Shown piece after piece: positions 14,876-55,838 of a stretch of DNA of 56,741 nt. The stretch lies in the NCBI GenBank assembly GCA_025057275.1, contig JANWXQ010000068.1, positions 1-56,741 on the forward strand, in the 5' to 3' direction. The notes under the pieces are model-generated. The model made no database searches, was not told where the DNA came from, and worked only from the letters and a program-made list of their open reading frames with translations. A program made the position numbers and the translations under genes. The stretch comes from Chitinophagales bacterium (GTDB lineage: Bacteria; Bacteroidota; Bacteroidia; Chitinophagales; UBA10324). Positions within the stretch are counted from its first letter, which is position 1; the number at the start of each line of letters is the position of its first letter.

Positions 14876-16885
14876 ATGGAGAAGCCCACAGGCATTACAG
14901 GTGTAACGATCGCGCTGGGTTTGTCCCTGGCTTCCTGCCTGATTACGCAGCAACCCAAGACCGGTGAAATTTTATTTCAGGAAAAAAATTATGCCTGGGC
15001 AGCCCAAAAGCTGCAGCAGGAATTTGCTGCGGCCACGGAGCTGCCCGCTAAAGCGAATCTGGCTTTCCTGATTGCTGAGTCATACCGGTTGTCGGCGCAA
15101 TTTGAGGAAGCGGAAGCATGGTATCAGCGTGCCTTGTCGCTGGATGCCGACCAACGGACGGAGTTTCTGTATGCTTCCATGCTCAAGGCCAATGAAAAAT
15201 ACGATGAGGCTTCTGCCGCTTTTTCCCGTTACACCGACCGCTATCCCTTTGACGACCGGGGCCACAGCGAAGTAGAGGCCTGCCAGCTCGCTGCGCAGTG
15301 GAAAAAGAATCCGCTGCCGGTAACGGTGGTTCCCGTGTCCGCTCTGAACTCACCGGCTTTTGATTATGCCCCTGTCAGGTATCGCAACGGGGCACTGGTT
15401 TTCACCAGCGACCGCGACCTGGCCACAGGTGAAGAAGCCTATGGCTGGACCGGAAAAAAATTCAGTGACCTGTTCACCTCCGCTCCGGATGGCGCCGGTT
15501 CCTGGCAAACGCCGCAGCCTTTTTCAGCGCTGATCAATTCCCCGTTCAATGAGGGCGCAGCAACGTTTTCTCCCGATTTTCAGCAATGTTATTTTACGCG
15601 CTGCGGCAGCAATGCGACCACTACGGATTTCTGTCAGATTCTGACCTGCATCTGGAATGGTTCGGAATGGAGTGAACCGCAGGTGCTCCCCTTGTTAAAC
15701 GACACCTGCAACGTCATGCATCCGTTTCTTTCGGCAGATGGAAAAGAGCTGTTCGTCAGCAGCGATGCTGAAGGAGGATATGGAGGAAAAGATTTATATG
15801 TGTTCTTTCGCCAGGCTGATGGTTCCTGGGGTTCTCCGCAAAACCTCGGGCCGGCCGTGAATACCGAAGGGGATGAACTGTTTCCTCATCTGGGTCCCGA
15901 CCAGCGCTTGTACTTTGCCAGCAACGGCCATCCGGGCATGGGTGGTTTTGACTTGTTTGCCGCTGCCCGGCTGGGCCGCCAGTGGGGAAACGTGCAAAAC
16001 CTGAAAGCGCCCATCAACTCCGGAGCCGATGATCTGGCGCTCATCCTGGAGCCGCTCAACCCTCGGGAAAAAAGGCTGCTGGTGCGAAAAGGTTATTTTG
16101 CCTCCAACCGGCCGGGCGGCAAGGGCAACGACGATATTTATGCGTTTCAGGAAGAAAAACAAAAAACGTTTTTACTGGTCGCCCAGGTCGTAGAAAAGCA
16201 ATTTGCCCAGGCAGGCAACCCCAACAGCGAAGTCATCGGATTTCTTCCGCTTGCCGGTCAGCCGGTTCAGATCCAGGAGCTGTCCGTTCAGGGACAACCT
16301 TCCGGAAATCCCGTAACCCTCACTACCGATGCCGATGGAAGGGTCACCCTCATCACAGAGCCGCTGAAGCAGTTTCGCCTTGCCGCCTCACGACCTGACT
16401 ATTTTACCCGAACGGAAAACGCCGCCATGCCCGCCAGAGAGGACACCGATGAAGACACCGTTTTGGTCAGTGTACGCCTGGTGCTGGATCGTATTTTCCG
16501 AAACGTAGAAATCAACATTCCCAACATTTATTACGACTACGACAAGGCCACCATTCGAAGCGATGCCCGACCGGTGCTGGACACCCTGGCGGTTTTGCTC
16601 AACGACAACCCGCAGGTCAGCGTAGAAATCGGCTCGCACACCGATGCCCGGGGCAGCGCAACGTACAACCAGCGCCTCTCACAGGCAAGAGCGCAAAGCG
16701 TGGTGAATTACCTCATCGAAAAGGGCATCAGCCCCGAACGGCTGTCCGCAAAAGGCTATGGAGAAAGCCAGCCGGTCAACCGATGTCGCGATGGAGTAAC
16801 CTGCACGGAAGAAGAACATCAGCAGAACCGCCGTACCACCTTTAAAGTAACCGCCGTTCGCCCTGCCCCCGAAGCAGAGCAATAG
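14876..16885 (+). CDS. PorE-like OmpA-family lipoprotein (TPR, PD40 propeller, regulatory domain, OmpA_C)
   Basis: This 669-residue protein has a lipobox LASC at the end of its signal peptide (Cys about residue 22), so it should be a lipoprotein. Residues about 25-140 look like TPR repeats (EEAEAWYQRALSLDADQ). Residues 155-430 hold PD40/WD40-like propeller blades (ALVFTSDRDLA, GGYGGKDLYVFFRQADG, GNDDIYAF). A carboxypeptidase-regulatory-like fold sits about 440-530. The last 120 residues are an OmpA peptidoglycan-binding domain (NIYYDYDKATIR, IGSHTDARGSATYNQRLSQARA). This order and length match PorE of the Porphyromonas T9SS, which ties the machine to peptidoglycan. Assignment as the true PorE rather than a paralogue is uncertain. 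A TACTTTTG octamer at 14860-14867 is a possible -7 element. Confidence 0.8.
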   Translation: MEKPTGITGVTIALGLSLASCLITQQPKTGEILFQEKNYAWAAQKLQQEFAAATELPAKANLAFLIAESYRLSAQFEEAEAWYQRALSLDADQRTEFLYASMLKANEKYDEASAAFSRYTDRYPFDDRGHSEVEACQLAAQWKKNPLPVTVVPVSALNSPAFDYAPVRYRNGALVFTSDRDLATGEEAYGWTGKKFSDLFTSAPDGAGSWQTPQPFSALINSPFNEGAATFSPDFQQCYFTRCGSNATTTDFCQILTCIWNGSEWSEPQVLPLLNDTCNVMHPFLSADGKELFVSSDAEGGYGGKDLYVFFRQADGSWGSPQNLGPAVNTEGDELFPHLGPDQRLYFASNGHPGMGGFDLFAAARLGRQWGNVQNLKAPINSGADDLALILEPLNPREKRLLVRKGYFASNRPGGKGNDDIYAFQEEKQKTFLLVAQVVEKQFAQAGNPNSEVIGFLPLAGQPVQIQELSVQGQPSGNPVTLTTDADGRVTLITEPLKQFRLAASRPDYFTRTENAAMPAREDTDEDTVLVSVRLVLDRIFRNVEINIPNIYYDYDKATIRSDARPVLDTLAVLLNDNPQVSVEIGSHTDARGSATYNQRLSQARAQSVVNYLIEKGISPERLSAKGYGESQPVNRCRDGVTCTEEEHQQNRRTTFKVTAVRPAPEAEQ

Positions 16886-41339: not shown

Positions 41340-42083
41340 TTATTCTTTTTCTTCTGCTGAACGTTGTGTCCGGCGGCTGCGACCCGGAGGCTTGCGATCG
41401 GGTCGCATGGGACGCGATTCCTGACTGCGTACCCCCACGTTGGGAGAAAGGTCGCGCTTGCCAAATACTTCGCCGCGGAAGATCCAGACCTTCACACCGA
41501 TGCGGCCATAAACCGTTTGCGCCTCATTGACGGCATAATCCACATCAGCCCGGAAGGTGTGCAGGGGCACGCGCCCTTGCTTGATTTCTTCACTGCGGGC
41601 AATTTCCGTTCCCCCCAACCTGCCGCTTACGCGCACCTTAATTCCCTCCGCACCGGCACGCATGGCAGCAGCAATAGCCGATTTCATGGCGCGGCGATGG
41701 CTGATGCGACCCTCAATCTGGCGGGCCAGGGTTTCGGCTACCAGTGTGGCTTCCAGATCAGGCTTGCGGATTTCCACTATGTTGATCTGTATATCGCGGT
41801 TGGTGAGCTGATGGAGTTCTTCCTTGATCCGATCCACTTCCCCGCCAAGCTTGCCGATGATAATGCCGGGACGCGACGTGTGAATGGTTACGGTAATACG
41901 GTTAAGCGTGCGTTCAATAACGATCTGCGAAATGCCGCCCTTAGCAATTCGGGCACGCAGGTAATTGCGGATGCGCTCATCTTCATGCAACTTGGCCGGC
42001 ATCAGCTTGCCGCCAAACCAGTTGGATTCCCAGCCACGAATGATGCCCAGGCGATTGCCGATCGGATTGGTTTTTTGTCCCAT
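41340..42083 (-). CDS. rpsC: 30S ribosomal protein S3
   Basis: This 247-residue protein starts [23 protein letters not shown]. It has a KH domain with the GxxG-like turn in [17 protein letters not shown] and a C-terminal S3 domain ([21 protein letters not shown]). After the core comes a basic, Arg-rich tail ([16 protein letters not shown]), longer than in E. coli. It lines the mRNA entry channel. Confidence 0.98.
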
Positions 42084-42088
42084 ACGAA

Positions 42089-42556
42089 TTATTCGGTTGA
42101 TGCTGTTGGGGAAGGGGTAGTTTCTTTTTTGCGCCGGCGGGCTGGCCGGGAGGTTGTTTCTTTCGCCGACTCATCGGCCGGACGGGCATCCAATACCACA
42201 CTGACGTGGTTGGAGCGCTTCCGGATCTTGTAGGCACGGCCCTGAGGAGCAGGCAGCCATCGCTTCAGAATGCTGCCGCCGTTGACGTAGATCGTTTTGA
42301 TGTACAGGGAAGCTTCATCGGCGCGCATGGGGGTTCGGTTTTCCTGACGGGCCAGGTCTTCCTCACGCACTTCCCAGTTTTTGATGGCTGAAGTAATCAG
42401 CTTTTGCAACGGACGGGCAGCTGCATGCGGCAAATGGGCCAGCACTTCAAGGGCACGGTTGACTTCCAGACCGCGAATCAGGTCGGCCACGTAGCGCATC
42501 TTGCGCGGCGAGGTGGGGTAGTTTTTCAGATGGGCAACTGCTTCTGCCATAGCCAT
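42089..42556 (-). CDS. rplV: 50S ribosomal protein L22
   Basis: This 155-residue protein has a core [30 protein letters not shown] and [21 protein letters not shown], followed by a Ser/Thr/Arg/Lys-rich extension of some 35 residues ([19 protein letters not shown]) beyond the 110-residue E. coli form. Two ATGs two codons apart (42556, 42550) could start it. The L22 hairpin lines the exit tunnel. Confidence 0.97.
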
Positions 42557-42562
42557 GCGTTT

Positions 42563-42841
42563 TTAGGTTCCGGCTTCAATTTTTCGAGAAGAGTGCCCCT
42601 TAAAGTTTCGGGTGGGGGCAAATTCACCCAGCTTGTGGCCCACCATATTTTCGGTGACATACACGGGAATAAATTTGTTACCATTGTGCACGGCAAAGGT
42701 GTTGCCGACAAAGTCAGGGGTTATGGTGGAACGACGCGACCAGGTTTTGATCACGGACTTTTTTCCTGACTGGTTCATCTTCAAAATTTTTTCCAGCAGG
42801 CTTTGCTGCACGTAAGGACCTTTTTTTATGCTGCGCGACAT
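42563..42841 (-). CDS. rpsS: 30S ribosomal protein S19
   Basis: This 92-residue protein starts [19 protein letters not shown] and has [44 protein letters not shown]. Standard S19 of the 30S head. It is 6 bp from rplV. Confidence 0.98.
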
Positions 42842-42862
42842 GGCTGATTGAAGTTTTGGCGA

Positions 42863-43690
42863 TTATTTCTTAGGTCTGCGGCTGATGATGTACTTGCTGG
42901 ATGGGTTCTTGGGATTACGGGTTTTAAGGCCTTTGGCGTAAAGCCCTTTGCGAGATCTGGGATGACCGCCGCTTGCTTTCCCTTCTCCCCCGCCCATGGG
43001 ATGGTCCACCGGGTTCATAGCCACGCCGCGGGTACGGGGCCTGATGCCTTTCCAGCGGTTGCGACCGGCCTTACCGATCATTTCGGTGTTGTGATCGGCA
43101 TTAGAAACGGCACCTACAGTGGCCATACAAGTCAGCAACACCCGGCGAATTTCTCCTGACGGCATTTTGATGACGGCATACCGTTCTTCCTTGTTCGTTA
43201 GCTGGGCGCTGCTGCCGGCAGAACGGACCAGAACGCCGCCCTGACCCGGGTGCAATTCCACATTGTGAATGATGGTTCCCAATGGAATGTCCTTGAGCGG
43301 CAAAGCATTGCCGATTTCCGGCGGTACCTCTGGGCCGCTGAGCACCGTTTGTCCAACTTTGATGCCCTGAGGAGCCAGTATGTATCGCTTTTCGCCATCC
43401 TTGTAATGAACCAGCGAAATGAAACAGGTACGATTGGGATCGTATTCTATGGACTTCACCACGCCGGGCACCTGGTGCTTGTTGCGTTTGAAGTCAATGA
43501 TCCGGTATTGCCGCTTATGCCCACCTCCGATGTAGCGCATGGCGCGGCGCCCCTGATTGTTGCGGCCACCCGTCTTACGCAGGGGAGCCAGCAATGATTT
43601 TTCGGGCTTGTCGGTAGTGATTTCCGCAAAAGCATTGGCAATGCGGAAGCGTGAGCCCGGAGTGATCGGATTGAGTTTTTTGGTTGGCAT
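42863..43690 (-). CDS. rplB: 50S ribosomal protein L2
   Basis: This 275-residue protein has the peptidyl-transferase-associated loop [16 protein letters not shown] with the conserved histidine, plus [22 protein letters not shown] near the N-terminus. The zinc-independent length is normal. It follows rplW by 24 bp. Confidence 0.98.
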
Positions 43691-43714
43691 AATCGGCTTC
43701 GTAGTGCGTTTGGA

Positions 43715-44008
43715 TTAAACCCCTGAGTAGAAATCTATGGTATCGCCTTTGGCCAGCGTCACGTACGCTTTCTTGTAAGCCGGTTTCATTCCGCGCAACA
43801 CCTGACGCCGGGTGTAGCGGCTCTTTTGTTTTCCGGGCATAACGGCCGTGTTGACCTCGGCTACCGTTACTCCATACATCTGTTCCACCGCTTTTTTTAT
43901 TTGCAGCTTGTTGGCATGCCGGTTTACGACAAAACCTACCCGATTGAGCTTTTGCCCCATCGTATTGGTTTTTTCAGAAATCAGAGGCCGGATCAGGATG
44001 TGGTTCAT
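43715..44008 (-). CDS. rplW: 50S ribosomal protein L23
   Basis: The product is 97 residues from ATG 44008 (MNHILIRPLISEKTNTM); the longer frame to 44083 adds 25 residues foreign to the family. It has YGVTVAEVNTAVMPGKQKSR and AYVTLAKGDTIDF. It binds at the tunnel exit. The start overlaps the rplD stop by 4 bp. Confidence 0.97.
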   Translation of the reverse strand: MNHILIRPLISEKTNTMGQKLNRVGFVVNRHANKLQIKKAVEQMYGVTVAEVNTAVMPGKQKSRYTRRQVLRGMKPAYKKAYVTLAKGDTIDFYSGV

Positions 44009-44649
44009 GACGGTTGGCTGTTTGAAGCTGAGCGTTGGGCCAGTTGCCGCAGGGCGGTTTCCGTGAACAACAGCTTGCGGCAATTCAAAATCTGATAGGT
44101 GTTGAGCTGGCTGGCGCGCACAACCTGGTGACCTTCAATGTTGCGGGAAGCGCGCAGCAGATGGGTGTCGGGCTGATCTACTACCAGAATACTACGGCTG
44201 CCGGCAACACCTAAGTTTGTCAGTATGGCATAGTAGGGCCTGGTTTTGTGTTGCTCCAAGGTAAAGTCCTCTACAACGGCGACGGCCTGGTCTTTTGCTT
44301 TATAGGTTAATGCCGAGCGGTAGGCCAGATCGCGCACTTTTTTATTGAGCCTGAAGCTGTAATCGCGGGGTTTAGGACCAAAGATGCGGCCACCTCCGCG
44401 GAATAATGGATTCTTGATGCTGCCCTTCCTGGAACCGCCCGTTCCCTTTTGGCGGTGTAGCTTACGGGTGGACCCTGACACTTCGGATTTTTCCTTGCTT
44501 TTGTGCGTGCCTTGCCGCTGGTTGGCCATGTAATATTTGACGGCCATGTACAAGGCATGGTCGTTGGGCTCTATGGAAAACAGCTCATCCGGCAGGGTAA
44601 CGGAGCGACCGGAGCTGGTGCCATCTGTTTTTAATACTTCAATGGTCAT
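44005..44649 (-). CDS. rplD: 50S ribosomal protein L4
   Basis: This 214-residue protein has HKSKEKSEVSGSTRKLHRQKGTGGSRKGSIKNPLFRGGGRIFGPKPRDY, the long loop that reaches the exit tunnel, and the C-terminal SQLNTYQILNCRKLLFTETAL. In E. coli L4 represses its own operon. It is 20 bp after rplC. Confidence 0.98.
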   Translation of the reverse strand: MTIEVLKTDGTSSGRSVTLPDELFSIEPNDHALYMAVKYYMANQRQGTHKSKEKSEVSGSTRKLHRQKGTGGSRKGSIKNPLFRGGGRIFGPKPRDYSFRLNKKVRDLAYRSALTYKAKDQAVAVVEDFTLEQHKTRPYYAILTNLGVAGSRSILVVDQPDTHLLRASRNIEGHQVVRASQLNTYQILNCRKLLFTETALRQLAQRSASNSQPS

Positions 44650-44669
44650 GTTGCTGCCTGTTGGTAAGG

Positions 44670-45287
44670 TTAATTTTTAACCAGCACATAGCTGCCTCTG
44701 GCGCCCGGGATGCAACCGCTGACTACGAGCAGATTTTTTTCCGGAAGCACTTTCAGCACCTTGAGGTTACGCACCTTGGCTGTGGCATTACCCATCTGGC
44801 CAGCCATGCGCATGCCTTTGAAGACGCGGGAAGCATCGGATGAGTTACCTATGGATCCAGGAGCACGCATGCGGTCGTGCTGACCGTGGGTAGCCAGGCC
44901 AACTCCACTGAAACCGTGGCGGCGCACTACCCCCTGAAAGCCTTTTCCCTTGGTTGTGCCGGTTACGTGAACCGTTTCGCCTTCGCGGAAAATGTCCACG
45001 GTAATGGTATCTCCCGGCTTGGTTTCCAGAGCATAGTCGCGGATTTCGGCCAGCTTGTGTTTGGGCGGGGTTCCGGACTTGGCAAAATGACCCTGCAGCG
45101 GCTTGGAAGTCCGTTTGGGCTTACGCACGCCAAAGCCCAGTTGCACGGCATTGTAGCCGTCTTTTTCCAGGGTTTTGACCTGGGTCACTACACAGGGGCC
45201 TGCCTCAATGAGGGTACAGGGACGATTTCGACCCTGCTCATCAAAGAAGCTGGTCATTCCGATTTTTTTTCCAATAATGCCTTTCAT
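44670..45287 (-). CDS. rplC: 50S ribosomal protein L3
   Basis: This 205-residue protein starts [20 protein letters not shown] and has [19 protein letters not shown], and the central [25 protein letters not shown] loop that extends toward the peptidyl transferase centre. It follows rpsJ by 20 bp. Confidence 0.98.
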
Positions 45288-45307
45288 GCTCAGGTGTTGG
45301 TTTGCAG

Positions 45308-45613
45308 TTATCCCTTAATGCTGATTTCAACACCGCTGGGCAGTTCCAGTTTGCTCAGCGCATCCACGGTTTTGGATGATGAGGTATAGATATCTAGCAG
45401 TCTCTTGTAGGTGCACAGCTTAAACTGTTCGCGCGATTTTTTATTGACGTGCGGCGAACGCAGGACGGTAAAGATCTTTTTCTCAGTGGGAAGCGGTACG
45501 GGTCCGGCAACGATGGCACCGGTGCCCCGAACGGTTTTAACGATCTTTTCGCAGCTTTTGTCAACCAGGTTATGGTCGTACGAAAGCAGTTTTATCCTGA
45601 TTCGCTGTGCCAT
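45308..45613 (-). CDS. rpsJ: 30S ribosomal protein S10
   Basis: This 101-residue protein has [47 protein letters not shown] and [18 protein letters not shown]. It is the first gene of the reverse-strand ribosomal super-operon; rpsL, rpsG and fusA, often directly upstream, are absent here. A promoter candidate lies about 30 bp before the ATG at 45613. Confidence 0.98.
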
Positions 45614-46263: not shown

Positions 46264-48354
46264 TCATTCCTCTTCCTCTTGCTGCTGTTCCTCGTAAGTA
46301 TCTATCGCATCGGGATTGAACGCAGGGTTGCCCGACTCGTAAATCAGTTCGACGTTGGGGATGATGCCAATGACCCGGAATTCGGTTCGTCGGTTCATTT
46401 GCCTGCCCTCGGGATTGTCACGGCCATCGGGCAGGTTGTTGGGGGCTATGGGTTTGGTTTCGCCATATCCTTTGGCCACCATGCGCTCCATAGGAATGCC
46501 TTTATCGGCCAGATATTTGACTACACTTTCGGCACGGCGCTGCGACAGGCGCATGTTGTAGGCATCATTGCCTTTACTGTCGGTGTGGGAGCTGATTTCT
46601 ACCTTAATCTGGGGGTTGTCGACAAGTATCTGATATAAGGAATCCAGACCCGGTTTCGACTCCGGCCTCAGGTTGGCACTGTCAAAACCATAGTAGATGT
46701 TTTGAATGCGAATGGCAGCCTTGGGTATGCGTTTCATGAACAGGTCCACACGAAGGGTGTCGTTATCATCTTTTTCCATGACCACAAAGGAGGCCGAGCC
46801 GGTAAAGTAGCCGTCGGCCGTAGATTTAAGCGAATAGGCCTGTCGGGCTTTGAGGTTAAAGAAATAGAGGCTGTCTTTTTTGGAAATGGCCGAGCCCACC
46901 TGAAGATTTTTATCGTCAATGAGCATGACCTTGGCGCCGGGTATTACCTGGCGGGTTTCCTGGTCGAATACGTTGCCACGAACGGCGTAGTAAATTTTGC
47001 GCGGATATTCCACGCGCCAGATATCGTCGCAGCAGGTTTCGCTTTTTACCGAGGTGGTACCGGGACGGTTGGACACCAGGTAGCCAGAATAGCCGTTGTC
47101 GTCCATTACAAAGTACAGATCATCCACGCTGGAGTTGACCGGATACCCAAGGTTGTTGACAGTTTCCCACCGCTTCTGGCTGCCTTTGACTTTAAAAACA
47201 TCCATGCCGCCCATGCCCACCATGCCATCGCTGGAGAAATACAGGGTTTGCGTAGCATCGTGATAAAAGGGAGTGGCTTCATTGCCGATGGTATTGATTT
47301 TGCGTCCACAGTTTTGGGCGTTTCCGAATTTGCCGCTTTTGTCGCGTACGGCAAACCAGATGTCGCTGCCGCCTTCGCCGTTTGGCCGGTTGCTGACCCA
47401 ATAGAGCACTTCACCCTGTTTGGGCACCAACCCGATGGCCGGGTGGGTGTTGTTGGTTCCTGGCATGTTGATATTGTCATCCATGCGCTCAGGGGTTGTC
47501 CACTTGCCGTCTTTGAATTCGCTGACATAAATGCTGCACACCATTTTCATGGTGTCTTTCATCAGCTCGCATTTGGTGAAGTAAAAGCGTTTGCGGTCGG
47601 GAGAAAAGCGGCCGTTACCAACGTGCATGTTGTTGTCGTTCCAAGGAGCCCATTTGAGCGGCTGTGCCTTATCGTAGCTCCAGCCGATCTTGCTGTTGCC
47701 GGAAACTCCGGAAACATAAAACTGCGCATACTTGTTGTTTTTCTTTAAATCATCCAACATGATGATGGAGTCCGACTTCAATGAAGCAAAGAGCAAAGCC
47801 GTATCGCCAAGCGGAACGGGGGCAAAGTCGGTGTAGGGATTGTTGACGGCAGCCCCGATGTTGGTAATTTTCACCGAGTCGGGCTTTTGCAACTTTTGCA
47901 TGGCAAAGTCGCAGCTTTTGGATAGCGTTTTGGCCTGCTTCTTTACTGTCTGCGATTCGGGCCCTTTGTATTCTTTCCCCAGAATGTCAAATACCTTTTT
48001 TGCTTCCTGATATTTCCCGTTGTACATGAGGCTCAGTCCATAATAGTAGGGGGCCTTGGGGTAAAGCGGATCGTTCAGGTCAACCAACTTTTTGTACCAG
48101 TCTTCAGACTGCTTGTAATCGCGCATCTTGAATTCGCTTTCGGCGATGCGGTTGATGGCGTAGGCATTGTTGGGCTGTTTTTCCAATGTGGCCTTGTAAT
48201 ACATAACGGCATTGTAAAAGCTTCCGACGCTGTACAGGTAATCCGCCATTTTGAGGCTTTTCTTGAAGCTGAGTTTCTGAATGGGAAACTCCTGAGCCCA
48301 GGCGGTGGCAGACAACAGCAACGCACCGCAAAGCAGGCCGAATATTTTTTTCAT
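46264..48354 (-). CDS. OmpA-family protein with TPR and PD40 propeller, T9SS-associated
   Basis: The product is 696 residues from ATG 48354 (MKKIFGLLCGALLLSATAWA, signal peptide without lipobox cysteine). TPR-like repeats cover about 30-110 (NAVMYYKATLEKQPNNAYAINRIAE). PD40/WD40-like blades run about 170-420 (RFSPDRKRFYFTKCE, TLYFSSDGMVGMGGMDVFKV). A carboxypeptidase-regulatory-like domain (about 440-530) and an OmpA peptidoglycan-binding domain follow (NIYYGFDSANLRPESK, ISSHTDSKGNDAYNMRLSQRRA). The tail ends in an unusual acidic run (EEQQQEEEE). It is a non-lipidated relative of the lipoprotein at 14876-16885. It lies 42 bp downstream of the PorP/SprF-like gene and may anchor that protein or its cargo to peptidoglycan. 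Confidence 0.85.
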   Translation of the reverse strand: MKKIFGLLCGALLLSATAWAQEFPIQKLSFKKSLKMADYLYSVGSFYNAVMYYKATLEKQPNNAYAINRIAESEFKMRDYKQSEDWYKKLVDLNDPLYPKAPYYYGLSLMYNGKYQEAKKVFDILGKEYKGPESQTVKKQAKTLSKSCDFAMQKLQKPDSVKITNIGAAVNNPYTDFAPVPLGDTALLFASLKSDSIIMLDDLKKNNKYAQFYVSGVSGNSKIGWSYDKAQPLKWAPWNDNNMHVGNGRFSPDRKRFYFTKCELMKDTMKMVCSIYVSEFKDGKWTTPERMDDNINMPGTNNTHPAIGLVPKQGEVLYWVSNRPNGEGGSDIWFAVRDKSGKFGNAQNCGRKINTIGNEATPFYHDATQTLYFSSDGMVGMGGMDVFKVKGSQKRWETVNNLGYPVNSSVDDLYFVMDDNGYSGYLVSNRPGTTSVKSETCCDDIWRVEYPRKIYYAVRGNVFDQETRQVIPGAKVMLIDDKNLQVGSAISKKDSLYFFNLKARQAYSLKSTADGYFTGSASFVVMEKDDNDTLRVDLFMKRIPKAAIRIQNIYYGFDSANLRPESKPGLDSLYQILVDNPQIKVEISSHTDSKGNDAYNMRLSQRRAESVVKYLADKGIPMERMVAKGYGETKPIAPNNLPDGRDNPEGRQMNRRTEFRVIGIIPNVELIYESGNPAFNPDAIDTYEEQQQEEEE

Positions 48355-48396
48355 GGTTGCAGTTTTTGATTCAAGCAGTTGCGTCATGCCTGTGAA

Positions 48397-49404
48397 TTAG
48401 TAACGGGGACAGAAGAAGATGGGCTTGTCCAGCACAAAGCCGCCCAGGCAGCCGGTGTAGCCCAGGGAGAGCTCAAAACCGCCGCGGCCTTTGCTGGCAT
48501 CGCTCAGTGAAGAAATGTTCACATCGTAGCTGATGCCCAGCCGGATCTGCTTGTAGTCAATGCCGATCATGGGAATAACGGCATCACCCACGCGATACCA
48601 GGCTCCGCCAAACAGCTTCACGTCGTTGTTGAGCGCGTATGCTACCGAGCCGCCCAGGTTTATTTCCTGTGCTTTGGTTTGCGTCATGTACAGCACCTGG
48701 GGCACGATGCTGAACTGTTCGGTCAACTTGTATCGCAGTCCGCCATGGCCAACCGTTCGCATGCCCAGTTTGTTTTTGCCGTTATTGAGGAACGATTCCT
48801 TAGGCGGAATGAGGTGAAAAACGGAAAGGCCGCCAAACAGATCGGCCTGTTGGGAAAGGAAATAAGACAGGTATAAGCCGGCATTTAAGTCAATGTAGCT
48901 GAATTTATCATTAAAGTTTTCGTTACTGCTTAAAGTGGGATCAAACCCTTCTCCATTGAACTGAGATTCCCACAGCAGCTTGCTGAAGTCCAGCTTTTTT
49001 TGCACGTAGCCTACCTGAAGGCCAAACGAACCGTTGAGTTTGCGGCTGGCGGTCAGCGGACGGGCATAGGCAGCTGAAGCCATTATGCTCAGATTGGAAA
49101 GTTCGCCGGAGCCGGCTTTATCGTTCAGCAGAAGCCCACCGGCAGAAAGCACCCCTGTTCGGATCCAACGCTGCAGGACGTTGTTGATGTCAAACGACAC
49201 CGATGGAGTTACATAGGGGTCGGTAACGCTGCGCCACTGATTGCGGTACATGCCGGCAATCCGGTAGTTGCAGTCGTTGATTCCGGTAAGGGCCGGATTG
49301 AGCGTAAGAGGCGAAGCGTAAAACTGGGAGTAATGTATATCCTGACCCAAGGCCGCAACGGACCAAACGAGCAGGAGTCCCAACGGGCGTAAAAAGTTCA
49401 GCAT
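48397..49404 (-). CDS. PorP/SprF-family type IX secretion outer-membrane protein
   Basis: The product is 335 residues from ATG 49404 with a signal peptide (LLLVWSVAALGQ) and the family hallmark DIHYSQFYASPLTLNPALTG, followed by RIAGMYRNQWRSV. Alternating beta strands form a barrel ending LGYTGCLGGFVLD. PorP/SprF proteins are outer-membrane partners of T9SS; SprF is needed for secretion of the type B cargo SprB in Flavobacterium. Here it stands between two type B cargo genes (upstream) and an OmpA-family gene (downstream), fitting a dedicated partner role. The frame extends far upstream of 49404, but those residues lack a signal sequence. Confidence 0.92.
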   Translation of the reverse strand: MLNFLRPLGLLLVWSVAALGQDIHYSQFYASPLTLNPALTGINDCNYRIAGMYRNQWRSVTDPYVTPSVSFDINNVLQRWIRTGVLSAGGLLLNDKAGSGELSNLSIMASAAYARPLTASRKLNGSFGLQVGYVQKKLDFSKLLWESQFNGEGFDPTLSSNENFNDKFSYIDLNAGLYLSYFLSQQADLFGGLSVFHLIPPKESFLNNGKNKLGMRTVGHGGLRYKLTEQFSIVPQVLYMTQTKAQEINLGGSVAYALNNDVKLFGGAWYRVGDAVIPMIGIDYKQIRLGISYDVNISSLSDASKGRGGFELSLGYTGCLGGFVLDKPIFFCPRY

Positions 49405-49454
49405 GAGGGTACCGGTTCGTTGACAAAGCACATGAACAAAAGCGATGAGCTGGC

Positions 49455-49462
49455 CAAAGGTA
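49455..49462 (-). promoter_or_regulatory. Possible -7 element before the PorP/SprF-like gene
   Basis: TACCTTTG on the reverse strand fits TAnnTTTG and would place a start site about 45 bases before ATG 49404, in the gap after the type B cargo gene. No -33 TTG lies at the right distance, so this may be chance. Confidence 0.25.
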
Positions 49463-49472
49463 ATTTTTTTCC

Positions 49473-51827
49473 TTAACGGAACAGCGTAAAGGATCCTTTG
49501 CGCAGCACGGAATTTCCATTGCCATCCAGCCCGTCGACTACATAAACATAGGTGCCGATTTCCGCACTCCTGCCGTTGTAAGAACCATCCCACCCGAAGT
49601 CGGGATCAGACGTAGCGAACAACGTGTTGCCCCAGCGGTCAAATACGGAAAACTGGTTGAGGCGGAAAGGCCCACGGTAAATGATCCGGAATTGATCATT
49701 GATGCCATCGCCGTTGGGCGTAAAGGCATTGGGCATGAGCAACAGCAAATCATGAATAATTTTTACATAGGTTGATCCGAAATAAACGCATCCTTCAGCC
49801 GTAGTGATGCGAACGGTGTAGGAAATATCTTCCGTAGGCCGCGACACGGGGTTATAGATACGGTGGTCGGTGAGAAAAGTAGGCGGGTTCCATTCGTAGC
49901 TGGAACCTACACCGCAATGGGCAAACAACTGAGCCTCTTCTCCGGCATAGATTTCATAGGGTTGGTTAACCGTAATGACCGGATCGGGAAACACTTCTAC
50001 GGTTACTTCCACACTGTCCTGGCAGCCGTATTGATTGGTAACCAGTACTTCGTAAACGGTAGTAGAGAATGGAGTACTTACGGGGCTGGCTGTGTTGGGA
50101 AAATCCAGATAATCGGTCGGCGTCCATTCGTATGTGACACCTCCCGATGCCCATAACTGAACGGGCATGCCGGAACAAACGGCCGTATCCACACCGGCCT
50201 CCGCCACGGCATGGGGCACAACGGTGATGCGCATGGTGTCGTAATCAAAACACGGTGGATAGGTGCCTTGTACGGTGACTATGTACTCGGTGGTGGTTGC
50301 AGGGAAGGCAAAAGGGTTAGCCACGTTTGTATCGCTGAGTCCGGTAGCCGGTGACCAAGAGTAGGCTGTACCTCCTGTAGCCAGAAGCTGAATGGTGTCG
50401 CCCCAGCAAATCTGCTGATCCGGGCCGGCATCGGGTTCAATGACATCTACCTGAACCGTAACGTTTTTCTCATTAGTACAGATGTCCAGACTGACGCTAA
50501 CCGTGAACACCGTAGTGCCCATAGGTGAAGCCAGCGGATCATGACAATCGGGGCAGCTGACAAAAGCTGCCGGCTCCCAATGGTAGCTGTAGAAAGGGCT
50601 GTAAGTAACGCCCAGTTGTGCTGTACCTTGCTCACAAATGGTGGTGTCGCCGCTCACTTCAAAAGGAAAATCGTCAATTACGTACATGACCATGCTATCC
50701 ACCGGCAGGCCGGAGCAGGGATCAATGGTGTACAGAATAATGGTTTCGGTACCCTCGGGAATGCCATCGGCGTAAGCCCCGATAAACACACTGCACAGGC
50801 TATCGTATGGCAGAAAAACCAGGGTGTCGTTGATGGTCAGATAATCCACGCCGTTAACGGCAGTACCTCCAATGACGATAGGAATAAACAACGTATCGGT
50901 GTGGTAGGTGTTGAGAACAAAGTTGAACACGCCCTGTTTGCATCCTTCCACTGCAGTGAGCTCACCGTTAAAGGGATTAATGAAATTGAAGGTGTCAGAA
51001 AGAATATCTATATCGTATTGTTCCAAGAAATCAGCCTCCACGAACACGCCTGAATCGTAAATGCCGTCGCCGGCATCAGCAATGGCAAACGTCAGGTGAT
51101 AGGTCTGGCCGGGTGTCACCGGGTATTTGGCCTCCAGCACCTTGGTGAGCCCGTCATATTCAATGGTGGTAGCGGCCTGACTGGTCGGACAATTGTAGGA
51201 AGGCGGACAAATGAAATTCGCGGGTTCGTTGCACACATAATACGCGCCAAAGCCAATGGTGCAATTGACGTTGCTGATGGTGACCGGGAAGGAAGTGCCG
51301 GGAACAATGGCCATGTTTTTCTGGCCTACAATGCCCGGTCCGCTGATCCAAAGTGCAAAGACGTCATTAAAGATTGTGCCGACCCATTCACTGTATTCAT
51401 CTGAGCCGAACACGTAATTGAAACGAAGGGTATCGGTGTTAAGCAGGACATCGAAATCCAGAATACAGGCATCAAACGTCGGCTGGCCGCAGAGCGCCGT
51501 AAGGTTGGCATTGCCCGGCTGCAGGTTGTTGGTGCCATCGCAGCAACCGTTATTGGGACCTATGGCGTTGGTTGCCTGACCGGAGGTAAATACAATGCCA
51601 CTATCAATGCCCAGATTGGTGTTGGTGGCAATGAACTTTGCCGATGCACCATTGCCGCAGTTCATATTGATGTTGGAAGCCACGCTGCTGCATCCCAGTA
51701 GCGTAGCAACCATCTGCTGAGCAGTTACATTGGTATTGATGATGAGCTGGCCGCTGGAAGGAACGCCGGTTAAACCTACCAGCAAGGTCGTCAGCAATCC
51801 GGAAAACAACAGTTGACGAAAGTTCAT
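49473..51827 (-). CDS. Choice-of-anchor-L surface protein with T9SS type B (gliding-motility-type) C-terminus
   Basis: The product is 784 residues from ATG 51827 (MNFRQLLFSGLLTTLLVGLTG, signal peptide). The N-terminal domain (about 25-270) has LNTDTLRFNYVFGSDEYSEWV and IFNDVFALWISGPGIVGQKNMAI, typical of choice-of-anchor-L proteins. A Calx-beta-like region and several PKD/Ig-like beta domains follow (GTAYSWSPATGLSD, GVTYEWTPTDYLDFP). The last 90 residues (LLMPNAFTPNGDGINDQF, FDRWGNTLFAT, GTYVYVVDGLD) are the type B sorting domain. It should be a large surface or secreted adhesin-like protein. It is a paralogue of the next gene upstream and precedes its likely PorP/SprF partner by 68 bp. Confidence 0.9.
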   Translation of the reverse strand: MNFRQLLFSGLLTTLLVGLTGVPSSGQLIINTNVTAQQMVATLLGCSSVASNINMNCGNGASAKFIATNTNLGIDSGIVFTSGQATNAIGPNNGCCDGTNNLQPGNANLTALCGQPTFDACILDFDVLLNTDTLRFNYVFGSDEYSEWVGTIFNDVFALWISGPGIVGQKNMAIVPGTSFPVTISNVNCTIGFGAYYVCNEPANFICPPSYNCPTSQAATTIEYDGLTKVLEAKYPVTPGQTYHLTFAIADAGDGIYDSGVFVEADFLEQYDIDILSDTFNFINPFNGELTAVEGCKQGVFNFVLNTYHTDTLFIPIVIGGTAVNGVDYLTINDTLVFLPYDSLCSVFIGAYADGIPEGTETIILYTIDPCSGLPVDSMVMYVIDDFPFEVSGDTTICEQGTAQLGVTYSPFYSYHWEPAAFVSCPDCHDPLASPMGTTVFTVSVSLDICTNEKNVTVQVDVIEPDAGPDQQICWGDTIQLLATGGTAYSWSPATGLSDTNVANPFAFPATTTEYIVTVQGTYPPCFDYDTMRITVVPHAVAEAGVDTAVCSGMPVQLWASGGVTYEWTPTDYLDFPNTASPVSTPFSTTVYEVLVTNQYGCQDSVEVTVEVFPDPVITVNQPYEIYAGEEAQLFAHCGVGSSYEWNPPTFLTDHRIYNPVSRPTEDISYTVRITTAEGCVYFGSTYVKIIHDLLLLMPNAFTPNGDGINDQFRIIYRGPFRLNQFSVFDRWGNTLFATSDPDFGWDGSYNGRSAEIGTYVYVVDGLDGNGNSVLRKGSFTLFR

Positions 51828-51916
51828 GGATGCTGCGTTTGGTGCCTGCCTGCTTGCGGCAGGATAAAAGTAAGAAAAAAAACAGGTGTTCAATCTATAG
51901 GTCATTATTCGGACAT

Positions 51917-54247
51917 CTACCTAACCAGAGTTACACTTCCGGAGCGCTGCAACACCTTGCCGGAGTGATCCCTGCCGCTGACAACGTACACGTAGGCCCC
52001 TACCGGCTGCTGTTGTCCTTTCCAGGTGCCATCCCAACCGGCAGCGGGATCGTAGCTGGTCATTTCATACAACAATTCACCCCAACGGTTGTAGATCCGG
52101 AAGTAATCCAGGTAAAAAACGCCTTTTATCAGCGGGCGGATGAGGTCGTTTCTGGAGTCGTTATTGGGTGAAAAGGCTGTGGGTACCAGAACCAGCGCAT
52201 CCCACCGTACGTTGACCCTGACCGTATCGCGAACCTTACAACCCTCCGGCGTAGTTACCACCACATAGTAAATTATGGTGTCCTGAGGATTGAGGCAGGA
52301 CGGATTGCAGCTGAACGGATCGGTCAGATAGGTGGGCGGATACCACCAGCATCCAACCCCTCCGTTGGCAAACAAATCCACGCTGTTACCCAGATAAATC
52401 GTGGTATCGTTGCTCACGGTGATTTCAGGTATATCGTACACGGTAACGACGACTTCCTCATCATCCGAGCAGCCAAACTGATTGGTGACCAAAACAGTAA
52501 ATGTGGTCGTGTACCCGGCAGTGGCCAGGGTATTTTCGGAAGCAGGATTCAAACACCAATCAGGCGGTGACCAGCTGTACTGAACGCCCCCACTGGCAAA
52601 CAGCTGAAACGTATCCCCCGGACAGACCGTCATGTCTTCTACGGCAACGGCAATCGGATTGGGATGAACTGTTACCGTTATCTCATCGGTGGTGGTCTGG
52701 CAGACATTGATTCCCGTAACGGTGTACGTGGTGGTGGTAGTGGGATTGGCCACCGGGTTAGGGCAATCCGTGCAACTCAAACCGGTGGAAGGCGACCAGC
52801 TATAGGAATTAGCATTGGAGGCCTGCAACTGAACCGATTGACCGTCGCAAATTTCCACGTCAGGTCCGGCGAAAACGGGTATGGGAATATCCACAACAAC
52901 CGTAGCGGTATCGCTGGCCGTACAATTACCTAATGTAACGCTCACCACATAGTTGGTTGTCCCCTGTGGAACGGCCTGGGTACTGGCACAGGTTGGACAT
53001 TCCAGGCCGGTGATCGGGAGCCACTGAAAAGTTCCGGCCCCTGTAGAATACAGCGTTATACTGTCTCCCACACAAATAGTGGTATCAGGCCAGGCTACCA
53101 CATTGAACTCGTCAAACAGATACATGACCGCACTGTCATAAGGTTCATTGCTGCAGGCGAGGTACAAATACAGTATTACGGTTTCAAATCCTTCAGTAAG
53201 GGCATCGGAGAAAGCGGAAACCGAAAGCGAAGTACTTTGCTGCCCCGGCAAAATCACCACACTGTCAGGCAGTTCATTGTAATCCACTCCTCCTGTGGCT
53301 GTGCCTCCGATTTCGAAGTGAATGACTACCGTATCCGTCGCTACAGTGGAGAGCGAGAAATCAAACGTGCCGGAAAAACATCCTTCCACAATACCCAGGT
53401 TGTTGCTGCCCGGATCCACGTATGGGGCATTGGACTGCACAGTGGTGCTGGTGGATGACAAGCTTCCGGCCTGAATCCAGACGCCGGAATCCAGAATTTC
53501 ATCGGACACATCGGAAACCGCCAGCTTCAGGCGATAGGTTTCGCAAGGCTGAACCACGGCAAGGGCCGTAAGTTTCTTCGTAAAACCATCGTACTCAACG
53601 GTAACGCCTTTACCTGGACCGTTACATTGGTAAGAGGGAGGGCAAGCAGAGCTGGAAGGTTCGTTGCACACGTAGTAAGTGGATCCGTTCAGGCAATTCA
53701 CCGTATTGATGGCTACCGGATTGTTGGTGCCCGGAATCAGGGCAATGTTCTTCTTTCCTGAAATTCCCGGACCCGAGATGAAAAAAGCGAATACATCATT
53801 AAAAATGGAATTCACCCATTCGGTGTATTCATCGGAGCCAAATACGTAATTAAACTTCAGTGTGTCGCCCGTAACGGTCACATCAAATTCCAGGACACAG
53901 GCATCGAAGGTTTGGAAGGAGACCAGTGTTTGCAAATCGGCATCGCCGGGCGCATTGTTGTCGCCGGTAATTCCTCCGGATGAGTTTGGCCCCACCATGT
54001 TGTTGATCGTGCCACTGGTGAGCACAATGCCGCTGTCCAAACCCACATTGGAGTTAATGCCGTTAAAATAACCCCATCCGCTGTTCGGACAATTAAGCAC
54101 GACGTTGGAAATACTCACTCCGCTACCAACCAATGACTGCGCCAGTTGCACCGGGTCACTGCCCGGAGTGACTACCAACTGTGCCGATGCGGTGGCCCAT
54201 CCTAAAAAGTTAAAAAGTAAAAGCGCTGTTTGATGACGCAAATTCAT
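51917..54247 (-). CDS. Choice-of-anchor-L surface protein with T9SS type B C-terminus (tandem paralogue)
   Basis: This 776-residue protein has a signal peptide ending near ATASAQ. The domain order is the same as in its downstream neighbour: VTGDTLKFNYVFGSDEYTEWVNS, IFNDVFAFFISGPGISGKKNIAL, then a Calx-beta-like region (GTATGGVDYNELPDSVVI), beta domains (ANSYSWSPSTGLSCTDCPNPV) and a type B tail (LVLVPTAFSPNNDSRNDLIRP, IYNRWGELLYEM, GAYVYVVSGRD). The likeness and adjacency point to a tandem duplication, with clear divergence. A -7-like TAATTTTG is at 54296-54303 but has no -33 partner. Confidence 0.9.
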   Translation of the reverse strand: MNLRHQTALLLFNFLGWATASAQLVVTPGSDPVQLAQSLVGSGVSISNVVLNCPNSGWGYFNGINSNVGLDSGIVLTSGTINNMVGPNSSGGITGDNNAPGDADLQTLVSFQTFDACVLEFDVTVTGDTLKFNYVFGSDEYTEWVNSIFNDVFAFFISGPGISGKKNIALIPGTNNPVAINTVNCLNGSTYYVCNEPSSSACPPSYQCNGPGKGVTVEYDGFTKKLTALAVVQPCETYRLKLAVSDVSDEILDSGVWIQAGSLSSTSTTVQSNAPYVDPGSNNLGIVEGCFSGTFDFSLSTVATDTVVIHFEIGGTATGGVDYNELPDSVVILPGQQSTSLSVSAFSDALTEGFETVILYLYLACSNEPYDSAVMYLFDEFNVVAWPDTTICVGDSITLYSTGAGTFQWLPITGLECPTCASTQAVPQGTTNYVVSVTLGNCTASDTATVVVDIPIPVFAGPDVEICDGQSVQLQASNANSYSWSPSTGLSCTDCPNPVANPTTTTTYTVTGINVCQTTTDEITVTVHPNPIAVAVEDMTVCPGDTFQLFASGGVQYSWSPPDWCLNPASENTLATAGYTTTFTVLVTNQFGCSDDEEVVVTVYDIPEITVSNDTTIYLGNSVDLFANGGVGCWWYPPTYLTDPFSCNPSCLNPQDTIIYYVVVTTPEGCKVRDTVRVNVRWDALVLVPTAFSPNNDSRNDLIRPLIKGVFYLDYFRIYNRWGELLYEMTSYDPAAGWDGTWKGQQQPVGAYVYVVSGRDHSGKVLQRSGSVTLVR

Positions 54248-54353: not shown

Positions 54354-55838
54354 CTACCTTTTGCCTTCAAAAAAGGGGTTTATAGCAGAAATCATACGGC
54401 TGATTTCTGGTGAAATACGCAAACGCCAAACCAGAAAAACAAATAAACCACCAATCAGTACGGTTCGGTAAGCGGCCGTAAGCCACTGGTTAGCGGTTTC
54501 GGGTAAAATAAAAGTCAACATAAAAACCATGAGGGTCAATAAAGCGGCCCAAGCCAAACGTTGGCTGAAAGGATGAATGCGGTATTTTTTATACAAAAAA
54601 GTCATCCGGACAGCGTTATATGCAAATAAGGAAATGGCCGTAGCTACAGCTGCGCCATAAATCCCATAAGGGGGAATCAACAAGTAGTTGGTTCCGGTGG
54701 CTATACCAATGAGCAACACATTCGTCAGCAAGTTGAAGCGTGCATGCCTGGATGAGGCCAGAATTTCCCCGTTGATCCCGCTGGCCATGTCCAGCAGCCT
54801 TCCGGCAGCAATGATAAAAATCACCCAACGCGCCTGAGCGTAATCGGGAGGCAGAAACTGGAGCAAGACATCCACATTAATCCACACCAACAAAAACAAC
54901 CCGCTGCCGACTATGAGCTGATTCAGTGCCGTTTGATGATACAGCCGGCTGATGGACGACAGGTCGTTGCGTTTCCAGGCTTCGGCTACCAGCGCTACGG
55001 CAATCATGTTCATGCTGCGGGCAGGCACATGAATAAGCGTCCCTATGGTAAAAGCTATGGAATAAACGGCCGTTTCTGCCAGATTGCGCAATGCTCCCAG
55101 CATGACCGTATCAATAAAAGCCACATAGGTTGCCGCAGCTCCGGAAGCAAACATGAGCAGGCTAAAGCGAAGCATCTGGCTACGGCTGATCACCTCGTGC
55201 AGTTTGACGGTTGAGAAATAAAAAAATTCCCCGAGCCGCATCAGATAAGCCGCCAGCATCAATGCAGTTAGTATGTAGGTGCTGGCAAAAGCCATGACAA
55301 AACCGGAAAAATTGACCCAGCCGACAATCCACAGCCCAATAGCTACCGATTGCAACAGCCGCAGCAGTACCTCGCGCAGCAACAACGCTACAGGCGTACG
55401 CAGCAACGACCGGCAATGGTTAAAAAACAATTCTGAAAGCGCCATAAACAGCGCCATCGGAAAAATCCAGTAGAAATACTGATTAAATAACGGCGCACCA
55501 TCGGCATACATCCGCTCAATGGCCTGCCGAAAAACCAAAACGAGCAGCATCACTGCCAGATAGCCGGCCATCAACAACACCAACATGAACCGCAACAGTC
55601 CGTAGTGAGCTGCAGCGCGATTGGCGAAGTAGGGAAAAAACCGCACCAGGGCATACGGCGTACCTAACAGCGAAAACTGCGACAGGATCAAACCCACTGC
55701 AATAAGCATCCGCGTGAGTCCCATTTGCTCCGGAGTCAGAAAAGCCGGATAAAGAATCACCACATTCAGATAGCCAATGGCCAAACCGGCATAGGTGGCC
55801 AACGAGCCGTAAATGCTTTGGCGCTGGACAATGCCCAT
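54354..55838 (-). CDS. Polysaccharide flippase (Wzx/MATE-like)
   Basis: This 494-residue protein has about 12-14 membrane helices and starts with the usual QRQSIYGSLATYAGLAIGYLNVVILYP, as in polysaccharide biosynthesis (MviN/Wzx-superfamily) exporters. It has basic cytoplasmic loops and ends near RISPEISRMISAINPFFEGKR. It would move lipid-linked glycan units across the inner membrane. The substrate is unknown. It follows the FkbM methyltransferase gene by about 78 bp, suggesting a glycan locus to the right of the window. Confidence 0.85.
   Translation of the reverse strand: MGIVQRQSIYGSLATYAGLAIGYLNVVILYPAFLTPEQMGLTRMLIAVGLILSQFSLLGTPYALVRFFPYFANRAAAHYGLLRFMLVLLMAGYLAVMLLVLVFRQAIERMYADGAPLFNQYFYWIFPMALFMALSELFFNHCRSLLRTPVALLLREVLLRLLQSVAIGLWIVGWVNFSGFVMAFASTYILTALMLAAYLMRLGEFFYFSTVKLHEVISRSQMLRFSLLMFASGAAATYVAFIDTVMLGALRNLAETAVYSIAFTIGTLIHVPARSMNMIAVALVAEAWKRNDLSSISRLYHQTALNQLIVGSGLFLLVWINVDVLLQFLPPDYAQARWVIFIIAAGRLLDMASGINGEILASSRHARFNLLTNVLLIGIATGTNYLLIPPYGIYGAAVATAISLFAYNAVRMTFLYKKYRIHPFSQRLAWAALLTLMVFMLTFILPETANQWLTAAYRTVLIGGLFVFLVWRLRISPEISRMISAINPFFEGKR

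Follow-up and report, generated by a model that had tools for sequence, protein, structure and literature searches.

A candidate static surface-anchoring operon with paired choice-of-anchor-L type B cargo genes in an uncultured Chitinophagales family

Introduction

Can a single gene block account for the display of T9SS type B proteins on the surface of an uncultured Chitinophagales bacterium, and would proteins displayed in this way be fixed to the cell wall or moved? The question is raised by four genes at positions 46264-54247 of the window, our term for the whole stretch of DNA analyzed, a single contig of 56,741 nucleotides. An earlier, sequence-only reading had proposed that these genes form a self-contained unit dedicated to the secretion and anchoring of its own two cargo proteins.

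Related bacteria provide points of reference. In Porphyromonas gingivalis, PorE and PorP were purified in a complex with the type B protein PG1035, and in the published model PorE bridges this complex to peptidoglycan (PMC9143113). Flavobacterium johnsoniae has five operons containing a PorE homolog, a type B cargo and its cognate shuttle; the tail of Fjoh_3952 is immobile on the surface, and a static, wall-anchored complex was proposed (PMC12618676). SprF and PorG are attached to the moving GldK track through cysteines in their tails, and the PorG of P. gingivalis functions with one tail cysteine (PMC12635249).

Results

The four-gene block and its genome

The block comprises four consecutive open reading frames on the minus strand, in the order cargo 1 (51917-54247, 776 aa), cargo 2 (49473-51827, 784 aa counted from an internal Met preceding the signal peptide), a PorP/SprF-type shuttle (48397-49404, 335 aa) and a PorE-like protein (46264-48354, 696 aa). 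Cargo 2 is the gene that adjoins the shuttle. The intergenic gaps, from cargo 1 to the PorE-like gene, are 89, 68 and 42 bp. Order, strand and spacing agree with the sequence-only reading, as do the gene types: two choice-of-anchor-L type B cargo proteins, a PorP/SprF-like protein and a TPR/PD40/OmpA protein, each matching its family profiles. The arrangement is not a product of chance, as the same gene order recurs in related genomes.

Upstream of the block, and outside the module, lies a conserved neighbor encoding a flippase-like protein (54354-55838, minus strand; Polysacc_synt/MatE, sub-threshold). Its homolog precedes cargo 1 in G001, G003, G004, G008 and G011, and adjoins the PorP gene in G007. 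A ribosomal-protein cluster occupies 41340-45613 on the same, minus strand, the block being about 650 bp upstream of it. Large minus-strand open reading frames likewise follow the block in G001; G003 and G008 have other neighbors at this position.

The source genome is small (2.48 Mb), of Chitinophagales type and 99% complete. It encodes SprA on another contig (an open frame of 2436 aa), a GldK homolog adjoining a core PorP gene, and a GldJ homolog whose score is below the family cut-off. Our scans counted six matches to the PorP family, of which five exceed the cut-off, against 16 type B sorting domains; the genome thus has about five intact shuttles for 16 type B tails. Elsewhere in this genome, we found no locus that unites cargo, shuttle and PorE-like gene as the block does. 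Because export requires the genome-wide T9SS, with SprA encoded elsewhere, the block is a client of that system and is not self-contained, contrary to the initial proposal. The number of tails per shuttle similarly argues against a dedicated unit.

A second tandem type B pair is encoded at L089:5841-11024 of the same genome, with no adjoining shuttle. By pairwise identity, one of its tails is most similar to that of window cargo 2 (53%) and the other to that of cargo 1 (52%), although the tail tree did not group them.

Cargo proteins

Both cargo proteins matched the choice-of-anchor-L profile NF038133 (E = 5e-78 and 261 bits for cargo 1, 1e-65 and 221 bits for cargo 2; cut-off 27) and the type B sorting domain profile TIGR04131 (41.6 and 57.4 bits, respectively; cut-off 35), the weaker of the two sorting domains being that of the upstream protein. 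Their N-termini are signal-peptide-like by inspection. Judged by a TIGR04131 score above the cut-off together with a Sec-type N-terminal signal, both are type B T9SS proteins. Cargo 1 comprises a signal peptide, a choice-of-anchor-L domain (53459-54148), a Calx-beta-like stretch, Ig-like repeats and the sorting domain (51920-52186). Cargo 2 comprises a choice-of-anchor-L domain (51030-51716), Ig-like repeats and the sorting domain (49476-49736). All four domains are encoded on the minus strand. Residues 388-633 of cargo 1, within the Ig-like repeats, resemble the Aureispira grappling hook protein GhpA (PDB 9flp, E = 1e-60).

The choice-of-anchor-L head was confidently predicted to be a beta-sandwich (pLDDT 89.5). 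Its structural matches were middling (best Z 8.8; CBM61, 7.5; MAM domains, about 7) and may mean nothing more than a common beta-sandwich; given such matches, lectin-like or carbohydrate binding is a lead only. Our literature search found no open-access paper naming the choice-of-anchor-L domain.

In the source genome and its relatives, a third choice-of-anchor-L protein is an OmpA fusion (L099:10291-11607, L101:8250-9629, L103:8781-10199). These fusions have an intact peptidoglycan triad and no type B tail; thus, the head also occurs in a probably periplasmic, wall-bound protein.

In the tree of choice-of-anchor-L domains, cargo 1 and cargo 2 formed separate clades across four genera, with six rows each and supports of 100/99 and 100/100, and the two are therefore old paralogs. 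The tandem copies in families f11, f13, f4 and f12 grouped mutually, which suggests separate duplications, some of these forks being weakly supported. In the tail tree, the cargo 2 tails formed a supported ortholog clade and the cargo 1 tails did not resolve. The type B tails of cargo 1 and cargo 2 share 44% identity. In the published F. johnsoniae data, three tails at more than 44% identity use one shuttle; among published tail pairs, crossing over was seen for one at 68% identity and not for one at 43%. By this measure the window pair is a border case.

The shuttle and its cysteines

The shuttle scored 210.6 bits against T9SS_PorP_fam (TIGR03519; cut-off 90.55) and 174.5 bits against PF11751 (cut-off 22.3). 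The AlphaFold2 model (pLDDT 89) predicted a 14-strand barrel with a periplasmic C-tail. Its best structural match was PorV in the RemA-CTD-bound T9SS complex (8gl6_F; Z 24.7, rmsd 3.2, 269 aligned). As modeled, the shuttle is a 14-stranded barrel of the PorV/FadL type.

Three cysteines were invariant in 12 of 12 block-type shuttles: Cys45 (codon 49270-49272), Cys319 (48448-48450) and Cys332 (48409-48411), all on the minus strand. The latter two lie 13 positions apart in the tail, CLGGFVLDKPIFFCPRY; a search of this periplasmic C-tail for an SprF-type Cys-X-Cys motif returned none. Cys45 precedes strand 1 of the model and Cys319 follows strand 14, such that the two should meet at the barrel seam. 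Among 144 shuttles, Cys319 was present in 17 of 17 that have a Cys45 equivalent versus 2 of the 127 that do not. The two residues changed jointly in all four supported independent comparisons, a number too small for significance on its own. We infer that Cys45 and Cys319 form a seam disulfide. Cys332, located after the last predicted strand (309-318) in the CPRY end, would then be the lone tail cysteine and a candidate reactive residue.

Pairing of Cys319 with Cys332 in the manner of SprF was considered and ruled out, since Cys319 tracks Cys45 more closely than it does the terminal cysteine. A disulfide joining the tail of the shuttle to the PorE-like protein was likewise set aside: five cysteines of the PorE-like protein are invariant in the block, yet they are found in approximately 40% of the other PorE-like proteins compared and thus lend it no specific support.

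Two facts make Cys332 of interest: SprF and PorG use tail cysteines to attach to GldK (PMC12635249), and the GldK homolog of the source genome retains a cysteine equivalent to Cys343. Single CPxF-type tail cysteines are common in the clade of the window shuttle, with or without PorE, and so Cys332 may have another role.

In the sampled Flavobacteriaceae (loci L153-L172, L178, L179 and L208-L212), no cysteine occurs in the tail of any of the 17 shuttles that precede a PorE-like gene, most of these tails ending in PRFF or PRYF, and seven of the nine shuttles without PorE have two or three tail cysteines, like SprF. The presence of tail cysteines is a possible sequence sign of mobile versus static carriers in that family. 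Absence of tail cysteines from PorE-adjacent shuttles was not upheld as a general rule: the association had a Fisher p of 0.006 in one tree clade and 0.78 in the other, and the independent changes were too few for significance.

The PorE-like protein

The fourth protein comprises a signal peptide, TPR, a PD40 propeller, a carboxypeptidase-regulatory-like domain and an OmpA domain (PF00691, E = 3e-22). Its domain order (PF07719/PF13432, PF07676, PF13620, PF00691) is that of PorE, with some domains scoring below the curated cut-offs. It scored 334 bits against the PorE profile NF052230 (cut-off 600) and 380 bits against the CHU_0125 profile (cut-off 620), and a search of the protein and its block orthologs for the lipobox pattern returned none. 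The closest PorE/CHU_0125-type lipoprotein of the source genome is encoded at 14876-16885 on the plus strand, outside the module and about 29 kb from the block; it scored 442 bits to PorE and 485 to CHU_0125 and has a lipobox-like signal. On these grounds of sequence, the block protein is a PorE-like paralog and not PorE.

The OmpA domain carries an intact peptidoglycan triad: DSKGNDAYNMRLSQRR fits D-x7-N-x6-R (Asp/Asn/Arg), and the peptidoglycan-binding residues are conserved as in the PorE crystal structure (PMC7192894). The earlier suggestion that the OmpA protein would link the complex to peptidoglycan is in keeping with this triad, with the direct precedent from P. gingivalis (PMC9143113) and with the F. 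johnsoniae model (PMC12618676).

Recurrence and breakage of the linkage

Within the source organism's own family, f1, the cargo-cargo-PorP-PorE block was complete in G000, G001, G002, G003 and G008. G005 has a variant whose first cargo lacks a choice-of-anchor-L domain, and contig-end fragments consistent with the block were found in G004, G009 and G011. Nine f1 genomes thus carry the full block, the variant or consistent fragments. Similar units occur in three other families: f13 (complete in G042; cargo-PorP at a contig end in G054), f20 (G047, with one gene separating cargo from PorP) and f27 (G100, with a single cargo of 1964 aa). In the flavobacterial genome G112, a choice-of-anchor-L cargo adjoins a shuttle with a Cys-X-Cys tail, and no PorE is present there.

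Across the phylum, the choice-of-anchor-L domain was found in 47 of 296 sampled genomes. Of 20 additional choice-of-anchor-L loci from outside f1, 3 had a PorP-like gene next to them, in one case with PorE as well. Because many contigs are short, such proportions should be taken as minimum estimates. A phylum-wide subsystem of choice-of-anchor-L, PorP and PorE was accordingly ruled out. The pairing, whose recurrence the sequence-only reading had left as a question, is found in f1 and the three other families, and it characterizes a minority of choice-of-anchor-L loci phylum-wide.

The linkage also breaks. In genus g6, the tandem cargo pair and the PorP plus PorE-like pair are at separate loci, the shuttle ortholog being 53-56% identical. 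In G007, rated 100% complete, the shuttle ortholog (57%) and PorE-like gene persist with no cargo between them and the flippase homolog (36%); the only choice-of-anchor-L match in that genome is a 468-aa open frame, the size of the choice-of-anchor-L/OmpA fusions. Together, g6 and G007, the latter keeping PorP-PorE without a choice-of-anchor-L type B cargo, rule out that the shuttle is strictly tied to its cargo. At many loci with different cargo, a PorP-like gene is followed by a PorE-like one. The simplest reading of these arrangements is that PorP-PorE is a stable core around which cargo genes are gained, lost or moved.

Discussion

We propose that the block is probably a static type B surface-anchoring operon of the PorE-PorP-type B kind. 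Both cargo proteins would be made with Sec signal peptides and pass the outer membrane via the T9SS translocon SprA. Their type B C-termini would be collected by the adjoining PorP/SprF-type barrel, which would remain as the membrane anchor; cargo 1 may share this shuttle with cargo 2. The PorE-like protein would bind the periplasmic side of the barrel, and its OmpA domain would bind peptidoglycan diaminopimelate, which would hold the complex at the wall. Projecting on Ig-like stalks, the choice-of-anchor-L heads, whose predicted beta-sandwich fold resembles that of carbohydrate-binding modules, may bind carbohydrate and serve as adhesins. We infer that the block proteins bind one another in this way in the source organism.

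Several features read from the sequence support static anchoring: the family assignments, a gene order conserved in f1 and three other families, the PorV-like barrel fold of the shuttle model, the intact triad, and the SprA, GldK and GldJ homologs. Work on homologs adds the PorE-PorP-PG1035 complex (PMC9143113), the F. johnsoniae operons with immobile Fjoh_3952 (PMC12618676) and the demonstration that secretion depends on the shuttle. Against it stand the OmpA protein's missing lipobox and its score below the PorE cut-off, the breaks in linkage in g6 and G007, and the conserved lone cysteine of the shuttle tail, given that SprF and PorG attach to the moving GldK track by tail cysteines (PMC12635249). 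The 44% identity of the cargo tails weighs against the two-cargo part of the model.

As far as sequence can show, the block works like the complexes of P. gingivalis and F. johnsoniae. Its gene order is that of operons such as Fjoh_3952-Fjoh_3951-Fjoh_3950, in which a type B cargo is followed directly downstream by a PorP/SprF-like shuttle and then a PorE-like gene; the window differs in having two choice-of-anchor-L cargo genes before one shuttle. Its shuttle also contains Cys319 and Cys332, unlike the cysteine-free tails of PorE-adjacent shuttles in the sampled Flavobacteriaceae. In P. gingivalis, PorP binds the type B protein, and a TPR/propeller/OmpA protein binds PorP and peptidoglycan (PMC9143113, PMC7192894); the block encodes proteins of these same kinds. 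In P. gingivalis there is, however, a single PorP and a single type B protein, and its PorE is a lipoprotein essential for the T9SS, whereas the window protein is a paralog without a lipobox. The SprB-SprF locus of F. johnsoniae similarly encodes a large type B adhesin and an adjoining PorP-like shuttle, but not the PorE-like gene present in the window block. Finally, the tail of SprF carries a Cys-X-Cys motif and is bound to the GldK track (PMC12635249), whereas the shuttle of the block has one tail cysteine of the terminal type and a predicted seam pair.

The composition of the complex could be read otherwise. It is possible, if somewhat doubtful, that the shuttle partners cargo 2 only and that cargo 1 is a linked paralog served by another shuttle, as orphan type B proteins are. 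In known cases, the cargo gene immediately precedes that of its cognate shuttle; here this gene is cargo 2, whose tails form the supported ortholog clade while those of cargo 1 do not resolve. The 44% tail identity and the excess of type B tails (16) over intact shuttles (about five) also fit. However, cargo 1 adjoins cargo 2 in every complete block across four genera, and tandem cargo pairs are kept together even in g6, where PorP is elsewhere. The OmpA/PD40 gene, for its part, might encode a CHU_0125-like protein for outer-membrane integrity that is co-transcribed with the others but stands outside the cargo complex. CHU_0125 was indeed its best-scoring family (380 bits, compared with 334 for PorE). 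We regard this as very unlikely given the stronger CHU_0125/PorE-type gene at 14876-16885, the PorE-like genes found after PorP-like genes in many loci with different cargo, and the persistence of the PorP-PorE pair even without cargo.

A further alternative, in which the complex is not only wall-anchored, centers on Cys332. If this residue formed a disulfide with the GldK track cysteine, as in SprF and PorG, the complex would be mobile or track-linked and the cargo moved or mechanically coupled. The invariance of Cys332, its place in the predicted periplasmic tail, the retained equivalent of Cys343 in GldK and the sufficiency of one tail cysteine in P. gingivalis PorG (PMC12635249) are all consistent with such a link. 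We nonetheless consider it unlikely: the PorE-like partner points to a static complex, all 17 PorE-adjacent shuttles of the sampled Flavobacteriaceae lack tail cysteines, the GldJ homolog is below its family cut-off, and CPxF-type tail cysteines are common in the clade irrespective of PorE. A hybrid, in which the shuttle is tied to the wall through the PorE-like protein and is also covalently linked by Cys332 to GldK/GldN, with the seam stapled by Cys45-Cys319 to bear load, strikes us as distinctly improbable. If true, it would define a class of type B carrier in which static anchoring and track coupling, currently regarded as alternatives, coexist.

The static anchoring that we favor is a mechanism already known from related bacteria and is not a new system. 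The block is new in its host lineage, in its pair of choice-of-anchor-L cargo genes and in the cysteines of its shuttle. The published type B/PorP/PorE model would thereby be extended to an uncultured family of the Chitinophagales. In evolutionary terms, the PorP-PorE pair appears to persist as cargo genes come and go. The cysteine pattern, in turn, yields a testable prediction that distinguishes stapled carriers from carriers whose tail thiol could reach the GldK track.
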